Shown piece after piece: positions 1-4,795 of a stretch of 10,234 nt of DNA. The notes below the pieces were generated by a model. The model made no database searches. It saw nothing but the letters and a program-made list of their open reading frames with translations, and was not told where the DNA came from. A program made the position numbers and the translations under genes. This DNA is from a bacterium UBP3_UBA1247 (lineage in GTDB: Bacteria; UBA3054): positions 1,136-11,369 of the forward strand of contig DBWD01000036.1 in the NCBI GenBank assembly GCA_002308555.1. The letters run 5' to 3'. The number at the start of each line of letters is the position of its first letter. Position 1 is the first letter of the stretch.

Positions 1-641
1 TCCGTGACGGCCGCGCTGCCCGGGCCGGCGATCACGTCCACCTTCTCGATGGCGCGGGTGCCAAGGCACATGGCCGCCACGAGAGAAGGGCCGTGCCCGC
101 GGTAAAGCTCGTGGACGCCCAGAAGCCTGCAGGCCGCCAGGATGCCGGGATTGACCTTGCCCTCCTCATTGCAGGGAGTGGCCACGCAAATGCTTTTTAC
201 GCCAGCGACCTGGGCCGGGATGACGCTCATGAGGACCGAGGAGACCAGGGGCGCGGTGCCCGCGGGAACATAGATACCCGCCCGCCTCACGGGACGGTAG
301 GTCTCTCCGAAGCTGCCCCCGAAGGGGCCTTCGGCCTTCCAGGGAGTCCTGAGCTGCTTCTCATGGAAAGCGCGGATGCCCTCGGCGGCGTTCTTAATGG
401 CCTTCTCCAGTTCCGGGGGGCATTTGGCGTTCTCTATCTCGCGCTTGCTGACTTTAAGCTTGCTGGGGCTCAGGGGGCACTTGTCGAATTGCTTCGTGTA
501 TTCGCAGATCGCCGCGTCCCCTTCCTTGGCGACTCTCTTGATGATGGAGCCCACGATCTCCGCGAGCTTCTGGCTGGGCCGCTCGTTCCGGCGGCTCTTC
601 AAAAGTTCGTCCAGCGCTTCTTTGCTTTCGATGATTTTCAT
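1..641 (-). CDS. hisD: Histidinol dehydrogenase family protein, N-terminal part (cut by window edge)
   Basis: The first 213 residues of a HisD-family NAD-dependent dehydrogenase; the C-terminal half lies beyond the left edge. HisD carries out the last two oxidations of histidine synthesis, L-histidinol to L-histidine, in the cytoplasm. Seen: the N-terminal helical region, then the family block RRAGIYVPAGTAPLVSSVLM (about residues 119-138), followed by IPAQVAGVKSICVATP and a GPG turn near residues 206-208. Two normally conserved blocks are unusual. The stretch usually close to GGAQAIAALAYGT reads RGHGPSLVAAMCLGT (181-195), and the usual GPGN is GPGS. The zinc and catalytic residues would lie in the missing part and cannot be checked. 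It could therefore be true HisD or a paralogue using another alcohol. ATG at 641 is chosen because it opens the homologous N-terminus. No clear Shine-Dalgarno precedes it. It lies 45 bases downstream of smpB and has its own promoter. Confidence 0.85.
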   Translation of the reverse strand, partial: MKIIESKEALDELLKSRRNERPSQKLAEIVGSIIKRVAKEGDAAICEYTKQFDKCPLSPSKLKVSKREIENAKCPPELEKAIKNAAEGIRAFHEKQLRTPWKAEGPFGGSFGETYRPVRRAGIYVPAGTAPLVSSVLMSVIPAQVAGVKSICVATPCNEEGKVNPGILAACRLLGVHELYRGHGPSLVAAMCLGTRAIEKVDVIAGPGSAAVT

Positions 642-686: not shown

Positions 687-1169
687 TCAACGCCTGCGCG
701 AGTTTTCGCTGAAGGCGATCTCCTCCTCCCGCTTCTTGGCCTTCTCTTTCAGCGACTCGCTCTTGTCGTAGGTGTGCTTGCCTTCGCAGAGGCCCACGGC
801 CACTTTGACCTTGCCCTTTTTCAGATAAAGCCTCAGGGGGATCAGCGTGAGGCCCTTGCGCTCGATCTTCTTCGTCAGCCTCAGAATCTCGGAATGGTGC
901 AGCAGAAGTTTCCTTTTCCTTTCCGGGTCGTGGTTGAAGCGGTTGCCCTTGTCGTATTCGTTGATGCGGGCTCCGATAAGGAACATCTCGCCGCCAATGG
1001 GGCGGCAATAGGCCTCCTGGATGCTCGCCTGGCGGGCGCGCAGGGATTTTATCTCCGTGCCTAGCAATACCAGGCCGGCCTCCACCGTTTCGAGGATATG
1101 GTAGTCGAAGCGGGCCTTCCTGTTCTCGATAAGGACCGGGGAAGGATTCTTTTCTTCGTTCTTACTCAT
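687..1169 (-). CDS. smpB: SsrA-binding protein SmpB
   Basis: A 160-residue protein, the usual SmpB length. SmpB binds tmRNA and delivers it to stalled ribosomes for trans-translation, releasing the ribosome and tagging the unfinished protein. Family features seen: ENRKARFDYHILETVEAGLVLLGTEIKSLR split over residues 15-44, then the QEAY block (51-54), FLIGARINEYDKGNRFNHDP across 63-82, RKRKLLLHH (84-92), and LTLIPLRLYLKKGKVKV across 107-123. The C-terminal tail is basic and highly charged, as expected for the segment that enters the mRNA channel. Its motif GKHTYDKS (130-137) departs slightly from the common GKKxYDKR. ATG at 1169 is supported by GGAG a few bases upstream and lies inside the end of tgt (8-base overlap), so translation is probably coupled. 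No tmRNA gene was recognised in the window. Confidence 0.96.
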   Translation of the reverse strand: MSKNEEKNPSPVLIENRKARFDYHILETVEAGLVLLGTEIKSLRARQASIQEAYCRPIGGEMFLIGARINEYDKGNRFNHDPERKRKLLLHHSEILRLTKKIERKGLTLIPLRLYLKKGKVKVAVGLCEGKHTYDKSESLKEKAKKREEEIAFSENSRRR

Positions 1170-2307
1170 TTTCTCCGCTCCGCCGCTGGCTGAAGAAAGC
1201 GGCGGCGAATTCCGTCATCCTGTCCTCCAGGATGGCCTCCCGCATTTTCCTCATCAGTTCCAGATAAAAATAAAGATTGTGCACCGTCAGGTAATAGCCC
1301 GCCAATGATTCGCCCACGTTGAAAAGATGCCGCAGATAGGCTCTCGTGTAGCGTTGGCAGGTGGGGCACTGGCAGCCCTCTTCCAGGGGCCGCTCGTCCA
1401 GGGCAAAGCGCCCGGCCTTGACCGGGACGTTCCCGAAACTCGTGAAAGCCGTGCCGTTCCGGGCGTTCCTGGTGGGCATCACGCAGTCGAACATGTCCAC
1501 GCCCGCCATCACGCAGTTCACCAAATCCTCCGGCGTGCCCACGCCCATAAGATAGCGAGGCTTGTCTTCGGGCATATGGCCGTCGCACAAAAAATCGCAG
1601 ACCCGGTACATTTCCTCGGGCGGCTCCCCCACCGCCAGGCCGCCTATGGCCAGGCCCGGCAGATCGTATTGCATTATCCCTTCAAGGCAGCGCAGCCTCT
1701 CGTCGTCGAGAACGCCGCCCTGCACGATGCCGAACAAAAGCTGCCGGGGAAAATCACCGCCCTCTTTCTCATTGAAAGCCTTGTTGGATTCCACGCAGGT
1801 ACCCAGCCACCTGAGCGTCCTGTTGACGGCCGACTCGATATACTTCCTTTCGGCCAGGGCCGGCGGGCATTCGTCGAAAGCCATGGCGATGTCGGAACCC
1901 AATACCTGCTGCATGAGCATCGATTCCTTGGGGCCAAGGAACATCTTCTGGCCGTCGATGTGGCTCTTGAAGGCCACGCCCTCGTCGCTGATGTTCCTTA
2001 GATCGGCCAGACTGTAGACCTGAAAGCCGCCGCTGTCCGTAAGAATGGAACGGTCCCAGGAAATGAACTTGTGCAGGCCGCCCAGCTTGGCCATGTTCTC
2101 CATCCCGGGGCGCGTCATGAGGTGATAGGTGTTCCCCAGTATGATGTCGGCGCCCAGCGCCTCCAATTCCGCGTGGGGCATGGCTTTCACACAGCCTCTG
2201 GTGCCCACCGGCATGAAGCGCGGGGTGGTGAAAGTCCCGTGGGCGGTGGTGACGACTCCCGCCCTGGCCTTGCAGCGGGAATCCTTATGTTCCAATTTTA
2301 AAATCAT
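1162..2307 (-). CDS. tgt: Queuine / preQ1 tRNA-ribosyltransferase (tRNA-guanine transglycosylase)
   Basis: A 381-residue protein, normal for bacterial Tgt. The enzyme swaps guanine at wobble position 34 of GUN-anticodon tRNAs for preQ1, a step of queuosine synthesis in the cytoplasm. Numbered from the chosen ATG: FMPVGTRG near 31-38, GNTYHL near 58-63, DSGGFQVYSL starting at Asp91 (general acid/base), GIVQGG at 193-198, and GVDMFDCVMPTRNARNG with the nucleophile Asp274. The zinc site is Cys312, Cys314, Cys317 and His343 (CQCPTC...VHN). All key residues are present. A TTG five codons upstream (2320-2322) is open, but ATG at 2307 is preferred because homology begins there and the TTG overlaps a TATAAT box. 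The gene is first in a tgt-smpB unit and is divergent from the acyltransferase gene. Confidence 0.97.
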   Translation of the reverse strand: MILKLEHKDSRCKARAGVVTTAHGTFTTPRFMPVGTRGCVKAMPHAELEALGADIILGNTYHLMTRPGMENMAKLGGLHKFISWDRSILTDSGGFQVYSLADLRNISDEGVAFKSHIDGQKMFLGPKESMLMQQVLGSDIAMAFDECPPALAERKYIESAVNRTLRWLGTCVESNKAFNEKEGGDFPRQLLFGIVQGGVLDDERLRCLEGIMQYDLPGLAIGGLAVGEPPEEMYRVCDFLCDGHMPEDKPRYLMGVGTPEDLVNCVMAGVDMFDCVMPTRNARNGTAFTSFGNVPVKAGRFALDERPLEEGCQCPTCQRYTRAYLRHLFNVGESLAGYYLTVHNLYFYLELMRKMREAILEDRMTEFAAAFFSQRRSGENE

Positions 2308-2313
2308 ATTTTT

Positions 2314-2319
2314 ATTATA
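2314..2319 (-). promoter_or_regulatory. -10 box for tgt, predicting a leaderless mRNA
   Basis: The minus strand carries a perfect TATAAT, followed by six bases (AAAAAT) and then the tgt ATG. With the usual 6-7 bases from -10 to start point, transcription would begin at or beside the A of the start codon, so the message would have no leader. No convincing -35 hexamer lies 16-18 bases upstream. There is no Shine-Dalgarno for this ATG, consistent with leaderless initiation. A chance TATAAT in AT-rich sequence cannot be excluded. Confidence 0.5.
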
Positions 2320-2360: not shown

Positions 2361-2471
2361 TTACCCACCGCTTCCCAACCGCTTTTCCAAAGGATATCCA
2401 AAAGTTTATCGACCGGAACGGAGAACCTTATCCAAAGCTTCTCAAGAAATAATCCACCGCTTATCAACAGG
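2361..2471 (+). repeat. Degenerate tandem array of 11-bp DnaA-box-like units (candidate oriC element)
   Basis: Reading in 11-base steps from 2361 gives similar units at 2361, 2372, 2383 and 2394; then, after a one-base shift, at 2406, 2428, 2439, 2450 and 2461. The slot at 2417 is degenerate. The first nine bases resemble the DnaA box TTATCCACA: TTATCCAAA at 2428 and TTATCAACA at 2461 differ by one base. TTACCCACC (2361), TTTTCCAAA (2383), ATATCCAAA (2394), TTATCGACC (2406) and TAATCCACC (2450) differ by two. The units at 2372 and 2439 are weaker (5/9 and 6/9). All have the same orientation. It is known that low-affinity DnaA sites in E. coli oriC form arrays with 2-bp gaps, i.e. an 11-bp step. 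A GC-rich block (about 2471-2525, with a 7-bp stem at 2480-2486/2495-2501) and an AT-rich block (about 2527-2585) follow. The repeat is seen directly; the origin role is inferred. Confidence 0.7.
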
Positions 2472-2529
2472 CGGAAAAACGGCGCGCTCCCCGCCGCGCC
2501 GGGGGTTCGCGCCGGCAGAGGCGGACTAT

Positions 2530-2558
2530 TTCACAATAAGCTTCAACTTTGATAGAAT
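2530..2558 (+). promoter_or_regulatory. Sigma-70-type promoter for the acyltransferase gene
   Basis: TTCACA at 2530-2535 and TAGAAT at 2553-2558 are separated by exactly 17 bases, close to the TTGACA/TATAAT consensus. Transcription would start near 2565, about 24 bases before the GTG start at 2589. The surrounding sequence is strongly AT-rich, so shifted -10 alternatives (for example TATAAA nearby) are possible. Confidence 0.6.
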
Positions 2559-2588
2559 ATATAAAATAACAAATCAAAGAAAAACACC

Positions 2589-3713
2589 GTGGATACATCA
2601 AACCTTTCCAGAGAGCAGCTGGAAGCGCGCTTCCGGGACGAGATCCGCCACCATTACGACAAGAAATACTCTTATCGCATCCGGCGCGTGATCCTGGCCA
2701 TCGCCAAGCTCGGCATCAAGCACATCATGCTTAGGGGCATCGAGAATTTCAAGACGATACCCAAGAACGTGCCCGTCATCATCAGCGCCACCCACAAGAG
2801 CCACCTGGATTACCTCCTCATCGACTGCGTCCTTCTCAAGGCCCTCGAGTACTACCCCTGCACCATCGCGGGGAAAAACCTTTTCCACGGCTATTTCAAG
2901 ACCATGCTGCCCAAGGTCAAGGGCATCTGCCTCGACCGCGAGCGCATCAGGGAGGAGAACCTCCGCAAGAAAGAGAATATCATCTACCTGAAGACCTTCT
3001 ACGACTATCTGACCGAGGAGATCTTCAAGAAATCCGAGACCGTCCTGATCTACCCGGAAGCCGGCCGCTCCTACAACGGCGAGGTGGGCAAGCTGGCCCA
3101 CGGCATCTTCGGCATGGCCAAGCGAGCCATCAACGAGGACGGCAAGATGGCCATCCTGCCCATGGGCATCACCTACGAGCGCGTGACGGAGGACGAAGTC
3201 TTCCATCAGCTCCAGGAGATAAAAGCCAAGGAAGGCATGTCCAAGCGCTACCGCGCGAAAGACCTCAACTCCTTCAAGCTGCACGCGCTTCTGCAAGCCC
3301 GGGGCAAAGTGCTCTTCTCCTTCGGCGAGCCCATCTACATCACCATGGAAGACCTCAGGCACCTGGACGAACTGGGCGACAAAGTCCGGAACGCCATGCT
3401 GAAGGAGACCGTCCTTACTCCGGTCTCGTTGGTCTGCCACGCCTTCGGCCAAGACACGAAGCTGAAGCTTACGGAACTCTACGCCCGCATGGACAAGGAA
3501 AAAGACCAGGCCCTCAAAAACGGCTACAAGATGATACCCGGCGTGGACCAGAACGCCAACCCGGGCTACATCTGGAAACTGGCCAAACCCCACCTGGCCA
3601 TGCCCTGGAGGCTCAGGAACATCCTCAAGCGCCGGGGCGACGAGATATCCGTCGTCAAGCCCATCGTGGTTCAATACTACGCCAACTCCGTCAAACACAT
3701 GTTTGAGAACTGA
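2589..3713 (+). CDS. PlsB-like glycerolipid acyltransferase
   Basis: A 374-residue acyltransferase of the glycerol-3-phosphate / lysophosphatidate acyltransferase superfamily, which transfers fatty acyl groups to build membrane phospholipids at the cytoplasmic face of the inner membrane. All four motifs are visible: HKSHLD (His69, Asp74; the catalytic HX4D), AGKNLF (94-99), YPEAGRSYNG (155-164) and ILPMGITYE (189-197). The GRSxNG form of motif III and the spacing resemble PlsB-type glycerol-3-phosphate acyltransferases more than PlsC. However, the protein is less than half the length of E. coli PlsB, so no symbol is given. No strong membrane segment is evident. GTG at 2589 is the only reasonable start: an in-frame stop lies at 2562-2564 and the next Met is residue 47. 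The Shine-Dalgarno is weak. The gene is a single-gene unit with its own promoter and terminator, divergent from tgt. Confidence 0.88.
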   Translation: MDTSNLSREQLEARFRDEIRHHYDKKYSYRIRRVILAIAKLGIKHIMLRGIENFKTIPKNVPVIISATHKSHLDYLLIDCVLLKALEYYPCTIAGKNLFHGYFKTMLPKVKGICLDRERIREENLRKKENIIYLKTFYDYLTEEIFKKSETVLIYPEAGRSYNGEVGKLAHGIFGMAKRAINEDGKMAILPMGITYERVTEDEVFHQLQEIKAKEGMSKRYRAKDLNSFKLHALLQARGKVLFSFGEPIYITMEDLRHLDELGDKVRNAMLKETVLTPVSLVCHAFGQDTKLKLTELYARMDKEKDQALKNGYKMIPGVDQNANPGYIWKLAKPHLAMPWRLRNILKRRGDEISVVKPIVVQYYANSVKHMFEN

Positions 3714-3740
3714 AAAGAGCGGCGATAATTTCTATGAAAC

Positions 3741-3772
3741 AAAAAGCGGCGGACATAATTCCGCCGCTTTTT
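3741..3772 (+). terminator. Intrinsic terminator of the acyltransferase gene
   Basis: A perfect 13-bp stem (3741-3753 with 3760-3772) and a 6-base loop CATAAT. The core GCGGCGGA/TCCGCCGC is GC-rich and is flanked by A5 on one side and T5 on the other. It begins 28 bases after the acyltransferase stop codon. The A and T runs make it able to act in both directions. Confidence 0.92.
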
Positions 3773-3970
3773 AATTTGCGCCGCTCCTCATAAAAACTGA
3801 TACGGTGCGCCGCGCAGAAATTTTCGTCGATAAGCCGATGACGCGCGGGAGGCGTATTCTGATACGCCGACCAAGCGTCGAGAGTTTTGCGGCGAAAAGA
3901 GCAAGCGGCGCTTCGTTCGCATAGCGAACGAAACGCTGGCAACACAGCGTTTTTTCGGAGTGAAGCGAAA

Positions 3971-4035
3971 ATAAGCCAATATTTTTTCGGAACACTGATT
4001 CAGTTTTTACTACTACCTAAAAAATATTGGCTTAT
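3971..4035. repeat. Perfect 17-bp inverted repeat around a 31-base loop
   Basis: ATAAGCCAATATTTTTT (3971-3987) is exactly complementary to 4019-4035, and 3988-4018 form the loop. The arms are AT-rich, unlike the GC-rich surroundings, and pairing stops sharply at both outer ends. The role is unknown. On either strand the hairpin ends in A/T-rich sequence but lacks a GC-rich terminator core. Confidence 0.85.
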
Positions 4036-4082
4036 CGAGAGGAGCGACGAAAAAACGCGTATACAGAACGACCTTTTAAAAT

Positions 4083-4104
4083 GTGGCAGACCGAAGTCTG
4101 CCAC
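4083..4104 (-). terminator. C(UUCG)G hairpin, probable terminator of the nth operon
   Basis: On the minus strand a perfect 9-bp stem (GTGGCAGAC / GTCTGCCAC) closes a UUCG loop, giving the very stable C(UUCG)G tetraloop. It lies 58 bases downstream of the nth stop and is followed by ATTTT. The T tract is short for an intrinsic terminator, so efficiency is uncertain. It may equally be part of the repeat-rich region. The stem is seen directly; the terminator role is inferred. Confidence 0.5.
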
Positions 4105-4162
4105 CCAATAATAAAAATAACCTAGAACGACACTGGCCGAGGCTCGCAGCCCATTATTAATA

Positions 4163-4795
4163 TTATTTATTAGCGCTCGGACACAAATCCGCCAACACGC
4201 AATCCGAACACTTAGGACCCCTAGCCTGGCAGACGGAGCGGCCGTGGGCGATAAGCTGGTGGCTGAAATCAGTCCACTCTTCCCTCGGGACGATGCGCAT
4301 CAGATCCTTTTCAATTTTTTCCGGTTCGCCGTTCTTCGTCAGTCCCAAACGGTTCGAGAGCCGCGAGACGTGGGTGTCGACCACTATGCCGTCGTTGATG
4401 CCGTACCCTGTGCCTAAGACGACGTTGGCGGTCTTCCTGGCCACGCCGGGAAGGGCCGTAAGCTCCTCCATAGTTTTCGGCACGCGCCCCTTGTGTTTTT
4501 CCGCGATTATTTTCGAGGCGGCGATGAGGCTTTTGGCCTTGTTCTTATAGAATCCGCAGGAGCGGATCAGCTTCTCAACGTCTTCCTGTTTGGCTTCGCC
4601 CATCTCTTTTGGCGTGGGATAAGCCTTGAACAAAGCGGGAGTCGTGAGGTTTACCCGCTCGTCGGTGCATTGGGCGGAAAGGATGGTGGCGCACAAGAGC
4701 TGCCAGACAGACCTGTGCCTGAGGGAGCAGCCCGCTTTGGGATAAGCGGCTTTCACAGCCTCGACGACTCTCGCCTTTCTTTCCTTTTCCGTCAT
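4163..4795 (-). CDS. nth: Endonuclease III, DNA glycosylase/AP lyase
   Basis: A 210-residue enzyme matching the usual Nth length. It removes oxidised pyrimidines and cuts the abasic site in base excision repair. Seen: LLCATILSAQCTDERVN (about residues 33-49), the helix-hairpin-helix LPGVARKTAN with catalytic Lys121, VDTHVSRLSNRLGL with catalytic Asp140, and a C-terminal [4Fe-4S] ligand set Cys189-X6-Cys196-X2-Cys199-X5-Cys205, exactly the canonical spacing. No key residue is missing. ATG at 4795 overlaps the stop of the upstream exported-protein gene by 4 bases (ATGA), and no Shine-Dalgarno lies at proper distance, which suggests translational coupling. It is the last gene of the run that begins with hldD. 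Co-transcription with an envelope operon may only reflect chance operon packing. Confidence 0.97.
   Translation of the reverse strand: MTEKERKARVVEAVKAAYPKAGCSLRHRSVWQLLCATILSAQCTDERVNLTTPALFKAYPTPKEMGEAKQEDVEKLIRSCGFYKNKAKSLIAASKIIAEKHKGRVPKTMEELTALPGVARKTANVVLGTGYGINDGIVVDTHVSRLSNRLGLTKNGEPEKIEKDLMRIVPREEWTDFSHQLIAHGRSVCQARGPKCSDCVLADLCPSANK

Follow-up and report, generated by a model that had tools for sequence, protein, structure and literature searches.

A conserved phased array of DnaA-box-like sites upstream of tgt in a family of uncultured ruminant gut bacteria

DnaA-box clusters in model bacteria and the array beside tgt

DnaA is the initiator of chromosome replication, and in a few model bacteria it is also a regulator or a titrated protein. 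In Escherichia coli, paired boxes are bound best when they lie 2 or 3 bp apart, and an extra base between the boxes at purH reduced DnaA binding, according to a regulon study (PMC11317965). The double boxes of that regulon are 9-mers with the same spacing that share one direction in the pairs shown, and many sites of the small bound set (16 regions) lie upstream of genes (PMC11317965). The oriC arrays of E. coli and Thermotoga maritima are described as directional boxes with a co-binding optimum at a 2-bp gap and head-to-tail oligomers of ATP-DnaA; in T. maritima, co-binding of two same-direction boxes was best at 2 bp (PMC10316083). Bacillus subtilis has a handful of multi-box intergenic clusters besides the oriC clusters flanking dnaA (PMC5295017), and its strongest DnaA regions outside oriC carry 4-11 boxes each (Table 1, rows 3-8, of PMC4447404). 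Joint removal of six clusters leads to early initiation, though the same review states that no cluster with a significant role in initiation control has been identified in this species (PMC5295017).

The window, by which we mean the whole 10,234-nucleotide stretch of DNA that was analysed, contains nine DnaA-box-like 9-mers at 2361..2469 on the + strand, all in the same orientation and phased at about 11 bp, as judged by box match, phasing and alignment. Successive units are separated by steps of 11, 11, 11, 12, 22, 11, 11 and 11 bp, leaving gaps of 2 bp and once of 3 bp between boxes, which bears out the sequence-only reading of nine same-direction units on an 11-bp step with one degenerate slot and one 1-base shift. 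Against the strict box TTATCCACA, the units at 2428..2436 (TTATCCAAA) and 2461..2469 (TTATCAACA) match at 8/9, and those at 2361..2369 (TTACCCACC), 2383..2391 (TTTTCCAAA), 2394..2402 (ATATCCAAA), 2406..2414 (TTATCGACC, which follows the sole 12-bp step) and 2450..2458 (TAATCCACC) match at 7/9; the two and five units first reported at these levels are thus reproduced exactly. Two units are weaker, TTCCCAACC at 2372..2380 (5/9, counted by eye) and TTCTCAAGA at 2439..2447 (6/9), and the chain passes over the degenerate slot at 2417..2425, in the window as in three relatives, G001-G003. The loose consensus TTWTCMACA is matched at 9/9 by one of the nine units, that at 2461, and at 8/9 by two, so most window units are weak.

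The array is like the E. coli double boxes in its 2 or 3 bp gaps, its single direction, its position upstream of a gene and its membership of a small set of sites, but it differs in that sites come as pairs there and as nine units in ten slots here (PMC11317965). In the portion of the E. coli gene list available, dnaA is common to both sets, and tgt, bamA, mraZ and yicC are absent (PMC11317965). The B. subtilis clusters can be likened to it by box count and position (PMC4447404), whereas the genes named there are others, ywcI/vpr, yqeG/sda and ywlC among them (PMC5295017, PMC4447404). Unlike the oriC of E. coli or T. maritima, the array at tgt comes without a conserved unwinding element and without a polarity switch.

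The periodicity is strong by most measures. Autocorrelation over 2361-2471 peaks at lags of 22 (0.494) and 11 (0.460), and the phased-chain score of the array is 28.5, a value reached by none of 300 shuffles (mean 3.7, maximum 8.8), while the best chain in the remainder of the window scores 6.2 on the + strand and 4.4 on the - strand. The scoring scheme was devised by the analyst after the array had been claimed, and relatives are therefore the better test. A plain count of sites with up to two mismatches, taken across the entire window, stands out less (24 found where 14.5 are expected, with 24 reached by 4 of 200 shuffles). TRF does not list the array among its tandem repeats because the units are too diverged. 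Two further candidates were rejected: an Rfam scan of the window gave no structured RNA family at gathering score, and for phage DNA, positions 2280-2620 had no match in phage records and no relative of the neighbouring acyltransferase was confirmed in viral contigs.

Conservation of the array with tgt

A profile search of genome contigs with the acyltransferase returned 52 loci, eight of them close (87-94% identity). All eight close relatives (G001-G008) are metagenome-assembled genomes (MAGs) from ruminant digestive tracts, and the same eight make up the family of G003 in the genome collection. The order tgt-array-acyltransferase is kept in three of them (L001-L003); in the other five (L004-L008), a different gene lies upstream of the acyltransferase and no array is found there (best chain 4.4). 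tgt itself was located in all eight genomes, and in every one the array lies directly upstream of it, including the five in which the other neighbour has changed. Chain scores upstream of tgt range from 10.9 to 30.1 in the eight genomes, none reached by any of 300 shuffles, so that with the window all nine tgt upstream regions beat every shuffle. The weakest array, that of G006, is five units long and shows no preference for 11 bp over 12. Boxes at the promoter that stay with the gene, as in a DnaA-regulated promoter, are thus seen in 9/9 tgt regions of the family.

An alignment of four species shows 62 of 111 array columns invariant and not one gap column, compared with 6 of 55 invariant columns and large indels in the adjoining 55 bp. 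Within the 11-mer, each box position is invariant in 4-9 of the ten units, and the linker positions 10 and 11 are the least conserved (3/10 and 2/10). The 11-bp phasing across the tgt/acyltransferase intergenic region, which the sequence-only reading had put forward for comparison, is indeed kept, with no indel in the three relatives that share both flanking genes. At the order level, no comparable array was found upstream of tgt in the three readable relatives, where the chains score 3.5 (G009; 122 of 300 shuffles reach this), 6.8 (G012; 2 of 300) and 2.8 (G014; 181 of 300); G012 is borderline.

The gene beside which the array lies, tgt (queuine tRNA-ribosyltransferase; 1162..2307, - strand), is followed on the same strand by smpB (687..1169), which overlaps it, and by a partial hisD (3..641). 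Overlap and direction make it likely that tgt leads a tgt-smpB-hisD operon. A TATAAT at 2314..2319 (- strand), 6 nt ahead of the ATG, is a candidate -10 element for tgt, and the same hexamer stands 6-7 nt from the ATG in eight of the nine tgt upstream regions and 11 nt from it in G006. Such proximity suggests that the tgt mRNA may be leaderless.

One reading of this arrangement, on the pattern of sda in B. subtilis, is that the sole selected function is control of tgt-smpB-hisD transcription by DnaA. The tight association of the array with the tgt promoter speaks for it, as does the chain that reaches to 14 nt (G004, G007, G008) or 26 nt (G005) from the start codon, into what would be the -35/spacer region, but the outermost units of those chains are weak (6-7 of 9) and ten slots exceed what a switch needs. 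The array also slides relative to the promoter. Counted from the tgt start, its span is about 53-161 nt in the window, 54-162 or 54-174 nt in G001-G003, 14-99 nt in G004, G007 and G008, 26-121 nt in G005 and 3-67 nt in G006. No fixed promoter geometry emerges, an argument against a single strict mode of transcriptional control and in favour of a flexible role; as the only function, transcriptional control is a fair possibility to us, though less likely than not.

Across the array from tgt lies a divergent GPAT-like acyltransferase gene (2589..3713, + strand), which is away from the array in five relatives. A GC-rich block (2472-2526, AT 0.20) and an AT-rich stretch (2527..2588, + strand, AT 0.77) lie between the array and this gene, as had been noted at the outset, but the GC-rich block is not conserved and the AT-rich stretch does not hold up as a melting element of the array. 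Its core, of AGAATAT/AAATAT type, recurs at the acyltransferase of the five relatives that have no array there, and nothing in the comparison across relatives points to a role for it in the array. The stretch carries a TAGAAT-type candidate -10 element and looks like the promoter and leader of the acyltransferase gene.

Some features of the window stand apart from these questions. Its tgt is 92% identical to that of G005 and only 82% to those of G001-G003, to which its smpB and hisD are closest; to judge from these identities, tgt looks to have been exchanged between clades. A blastn search with the array beside this tgt, by contrast, matches G001-G003 only. Past the acyltransferase, a 450-bp gap (3714-4165) holds two inverted repeats, one of 20 nt (3971-3990/4016-4035) and another that is wider and imperfect, and no similar DNA was found among the related loci compared.

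The array and the chromosomal origin

The sequence-only reading took the array for a candidate chromosomal origin. A long row of same-direction boxes with 2-bp gaps does recall the arrays of oriC, and in the 425-kb contig of G003 the array tops all other chains (25.3; next 18.1). By itself, though, a strong DnaA-box array is no evidence of an origin. Skew and gene polarity were measured in two long-contig relatives, on contig C7 of G003 (424,644 bp) and contig C60 of G005 (212,102 bp). The cumulative GC skew, the check that had been proposed, either climbs or stays level at the array, where it reaches no minimum; over 40 kb, skew is positive to the left and right of it in both (0.030/0.049 in G003, 0.044/0.031 in G005). 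The fraction of coding sequence on the + strand is high on both sides of the array (0.68/0.93 in G003, 0.68/0.89 in G005) and flips at dnaA-dnaN instead (0.25/0.80 in G003; 0.10/0.68 in G005, with 26 kb of contig remaining on the right side). At dnaA, too, the skew is weak: left and right values are -0.016/0.006 (G003) and -0.034/0.028 (G005) over 40 kb and -0.030/0.040 and -0.036/0.012 over 20 kb, and at 10 kb the expected change of sign does not appear (-0.007/-0.035 and 0.001/-0.057). On contig C22 of G005, the cumulative minimum falls at 55 kb, about 9 kb to the right of dnaA-dnaN. Because skew is weak everywhere, dnaA included, polarity weighs more. Polarity comes from a crude ORF caller that placed dnaN on the wrong strand in both dnaA contigs, and fixing this would sharpen the flip.

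The dnaA region has features that the tgt array lacks. dnaA was detected in seven of the eight genomes (none in G007, on two contigs in G003) and is followed by dnaN. In all seven, the 420 bp before dnaN are 70-73% AT and the dnaA-dnaN intergenic region carries DnaA boxes in both directions. A phased array lies upstream of dnaA in six of the seven; the G006 contig stops inside dnaA. This arrangement resembles the two-part origin of B. subtilis as described in PMC5295017. tgt and dnaA are on separate contigs in all seven genomes, and the tgt contigs of G003 and G005, which lack dnaA, extend at least 89 kb and 83 kb, respectively, to each side of tgt, so that the array is a cluster remote from the origin region provided that replication starts at dnaA. 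At tgt, multiple DnaA boxes are present, and neither a skew or polarity switch nor an adjacent conserved AT-rich unwinding element is, the AT-rich part being the neighbour's leader. The array follows tgt from genome to genome, and phased sites occur at up to six more places per genome among the best 150 candidates of each. We consider a replication origin at the array unlikely, and give it very little credence indeed. The reading of the row as DnaA boxes is well supported, by its conserved units, the lack of indels and an ordinary DnaA domain IV in the family; the origin role assigned to it is not.

In G003, dnaA domain IV is found on two contigs (C4 and C6), each with the two box sites close by, and the duplicates are probably two strains in one MAG.

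Further phased sites and the proposed role of DnaA

Similar sites occur elsewhere in these genomes. Two tandem boxes with a 2-bp gap, allowing up to two mismatches, have 51 matches in the eight genomes and 4 when the pattern is reversed, and perfect TTATCCACAAGTTATCCACA pairs stand at bamA in G002 and G006. A sequence-only model was built from 19 triple-box stretches and scored against the best 150 of 202-326 candidates per genome at E <= 1. Within that set, it gave at least 62 matches in the eight genomes, with positions assigned by reading, and 59 of these map to a set of seven places: tgt, bamA, mraZ/phosphodiesterase, a WYL-regulator/unknown-protein region, the yicC operon, upstream of dnaA, and dnaA-dnaN. 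Each genome has four to seven of the places among these best 150 candidates, and the three matches elsewhere (G002:C158, G005:C13, G006:C45) all have E > 0.16. The training stretches came from five of the seven places, which leaves mraZ and dnaA-dnaN as the two independent finds, the latter made in G002, G003 and G004. The tgt array of G006 was missed by the model and caught by the chain test.

All eight genomes have a site at tgt, at bamA and at mraZ, the last being a box pair rather than a long row. The WYL-region site is also present in 8/8 (recognised in G001-G003 by the unknown protein only), as is the yicC-operon site, which in G004-G008 lies ahead of the gene that follows yicC in G001-G003. 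Pfam searches with one member each identified POTRA repeats (BamA-type), MraZ, MraW, WYL, YicC, phosphodiesterase, DnaN and DnaA, and gave no family for the protein beside WYL or the protein after yicC. In 937 kb of contigs, selected for holding tgt or dnaA, 13 of 13 chains scoring at least 11.5 are at tgt, bamA, upstream of dnaA or in dnaA-dnaN, and the reversed sequence has none (top 10.3). Spacings of same-strand pairs (>=8/9) in this set are mildly informative, with 6 pairs at 11 bp, 8 at 12, 7 at 15, 7 at 22 and 6 at 34. The preferred spacing is not always 11: the bamA rows L123 and L147 do better at 10, the G006 tgt row L063 marginally at 12, L122 ties, and two mraZ/phosphodiesterase rows are marginally better at 9. 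Among the weak rows, two at mraZ/phosphodiesterase are each reached by 1 of 300 shuffles. The WYL row L124 has a chain of 3.0, reached by 76 of 300 shuffles, and is probably the wrong gene (protein match 37.5% identical). Our literature search returned no paper on a DnaA box upstream of tgt and none on DnaA boxes at the bamA promoter; papers on DnaA with mraZ/dcw were returned, and DnaA at mraZ is not put forward as new. Besides the DnaA-box pair, TGGGN-type repeats 10 bp apart lie upstream of mraZ (L128, L129, L141 and G003:C7 near 184 kb), and they resemble MraZ boxes.

Is DnaA the protein that uses these sites? In a search against solved domain IV chains, domain IV of the G003 DnaA aligns best to chain 1j1v (E 4e-25), the DHTTV stretch included. 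We take 1j1v to be E. coli DnaA domain IV and DHTTV to be the stretch that reads the box. Many units depart from the box, and DnaA binding here is predicted from sequence, as would suit another cooperative DNA-binding protein using the 11-bp repeats, but the same model also picks out sites upstream of dnaA and, at a place where it was not trained, in dnaA-dnaN, and the bamA pairs are perfect boxes. Another protein is, in our view, improbable. The gaps of the array match the 2-3 bp spacing of known DnaA co-binding, so a head-to-tail DnaA row would be the most likely complex.

The explanation that we consider probable is that the array is an extra-origin cluster of DnaA boxes, situated at the promoter of tgt-smpB-hisD, on which DnaA would form a head-to-tail row for titration, operon regulation or both. 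DnaA, most likely ATP-DnaA, would bind adjacent boxes of the same direction, with 2-3 bp between them, and form a stack of about 110 bp on one helix face. The row might then keep DnaA away from oriC, or change how readily RNA polymerase reaches the tgt promoter, so that the operon tracks the replication cycle. Titration could also be the whole story, with a site of the datA or Bacillus cluster type whose position at tgt is meaningless for tgt expression. The distance to the tgt promoter does vary, and there are several clusters per genome (among the best 150 candidates of each), as in B. subtilis, where removal of six has an effect (PMC5295017). Yet the same genes keep their sites across eight genomes despite changed neighbours, every one of the seven places sits upstream of at least one gene, and the B. 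subtilis review states that in that species no cluster with a significant role in initiation control has been identified (PMC5295017). Titration alone is a possibility that we take seriously without leaning towards it. Since similar sites are kept at the same small gene set, the array is better seen as a regulatory or storage site than as a replication start.

Beyond tgt, we suggest only tentatively that DnaA in this lineage is a cell-cycle transcription regulator, whose phased promoter sites would couple replication to bamA, mraZ-rsmH, yicC and tgt-smpB, with the sites at yicC and dnaA shared with other families of the order. If true, outer-membrane assembly (bamA), the division and wall cluster (mraZ-rsmH), RNA metabolism (yicC) and ribosome rescue and tRNA modification (tgt-smpB) would be tied to replication. 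Extra-origin DnaA clusters are already known; the interesting and unusual part is a conserved target set in an uncultured gut family. Obtained from sequence alone, this small set of conserved phased sites offers a testable list of DnaA targets outside model organisms. At the order level, with genes named by eye, model sites occur at dnaA-like genes (G010, G011, G012) and upstream of yicC-like genes (G009, G012). In G014, also an order-level relative, a tandem DnaA-box pair (L168, 1509-1528) lies upstream of a gene that by eye is gyrB-like.
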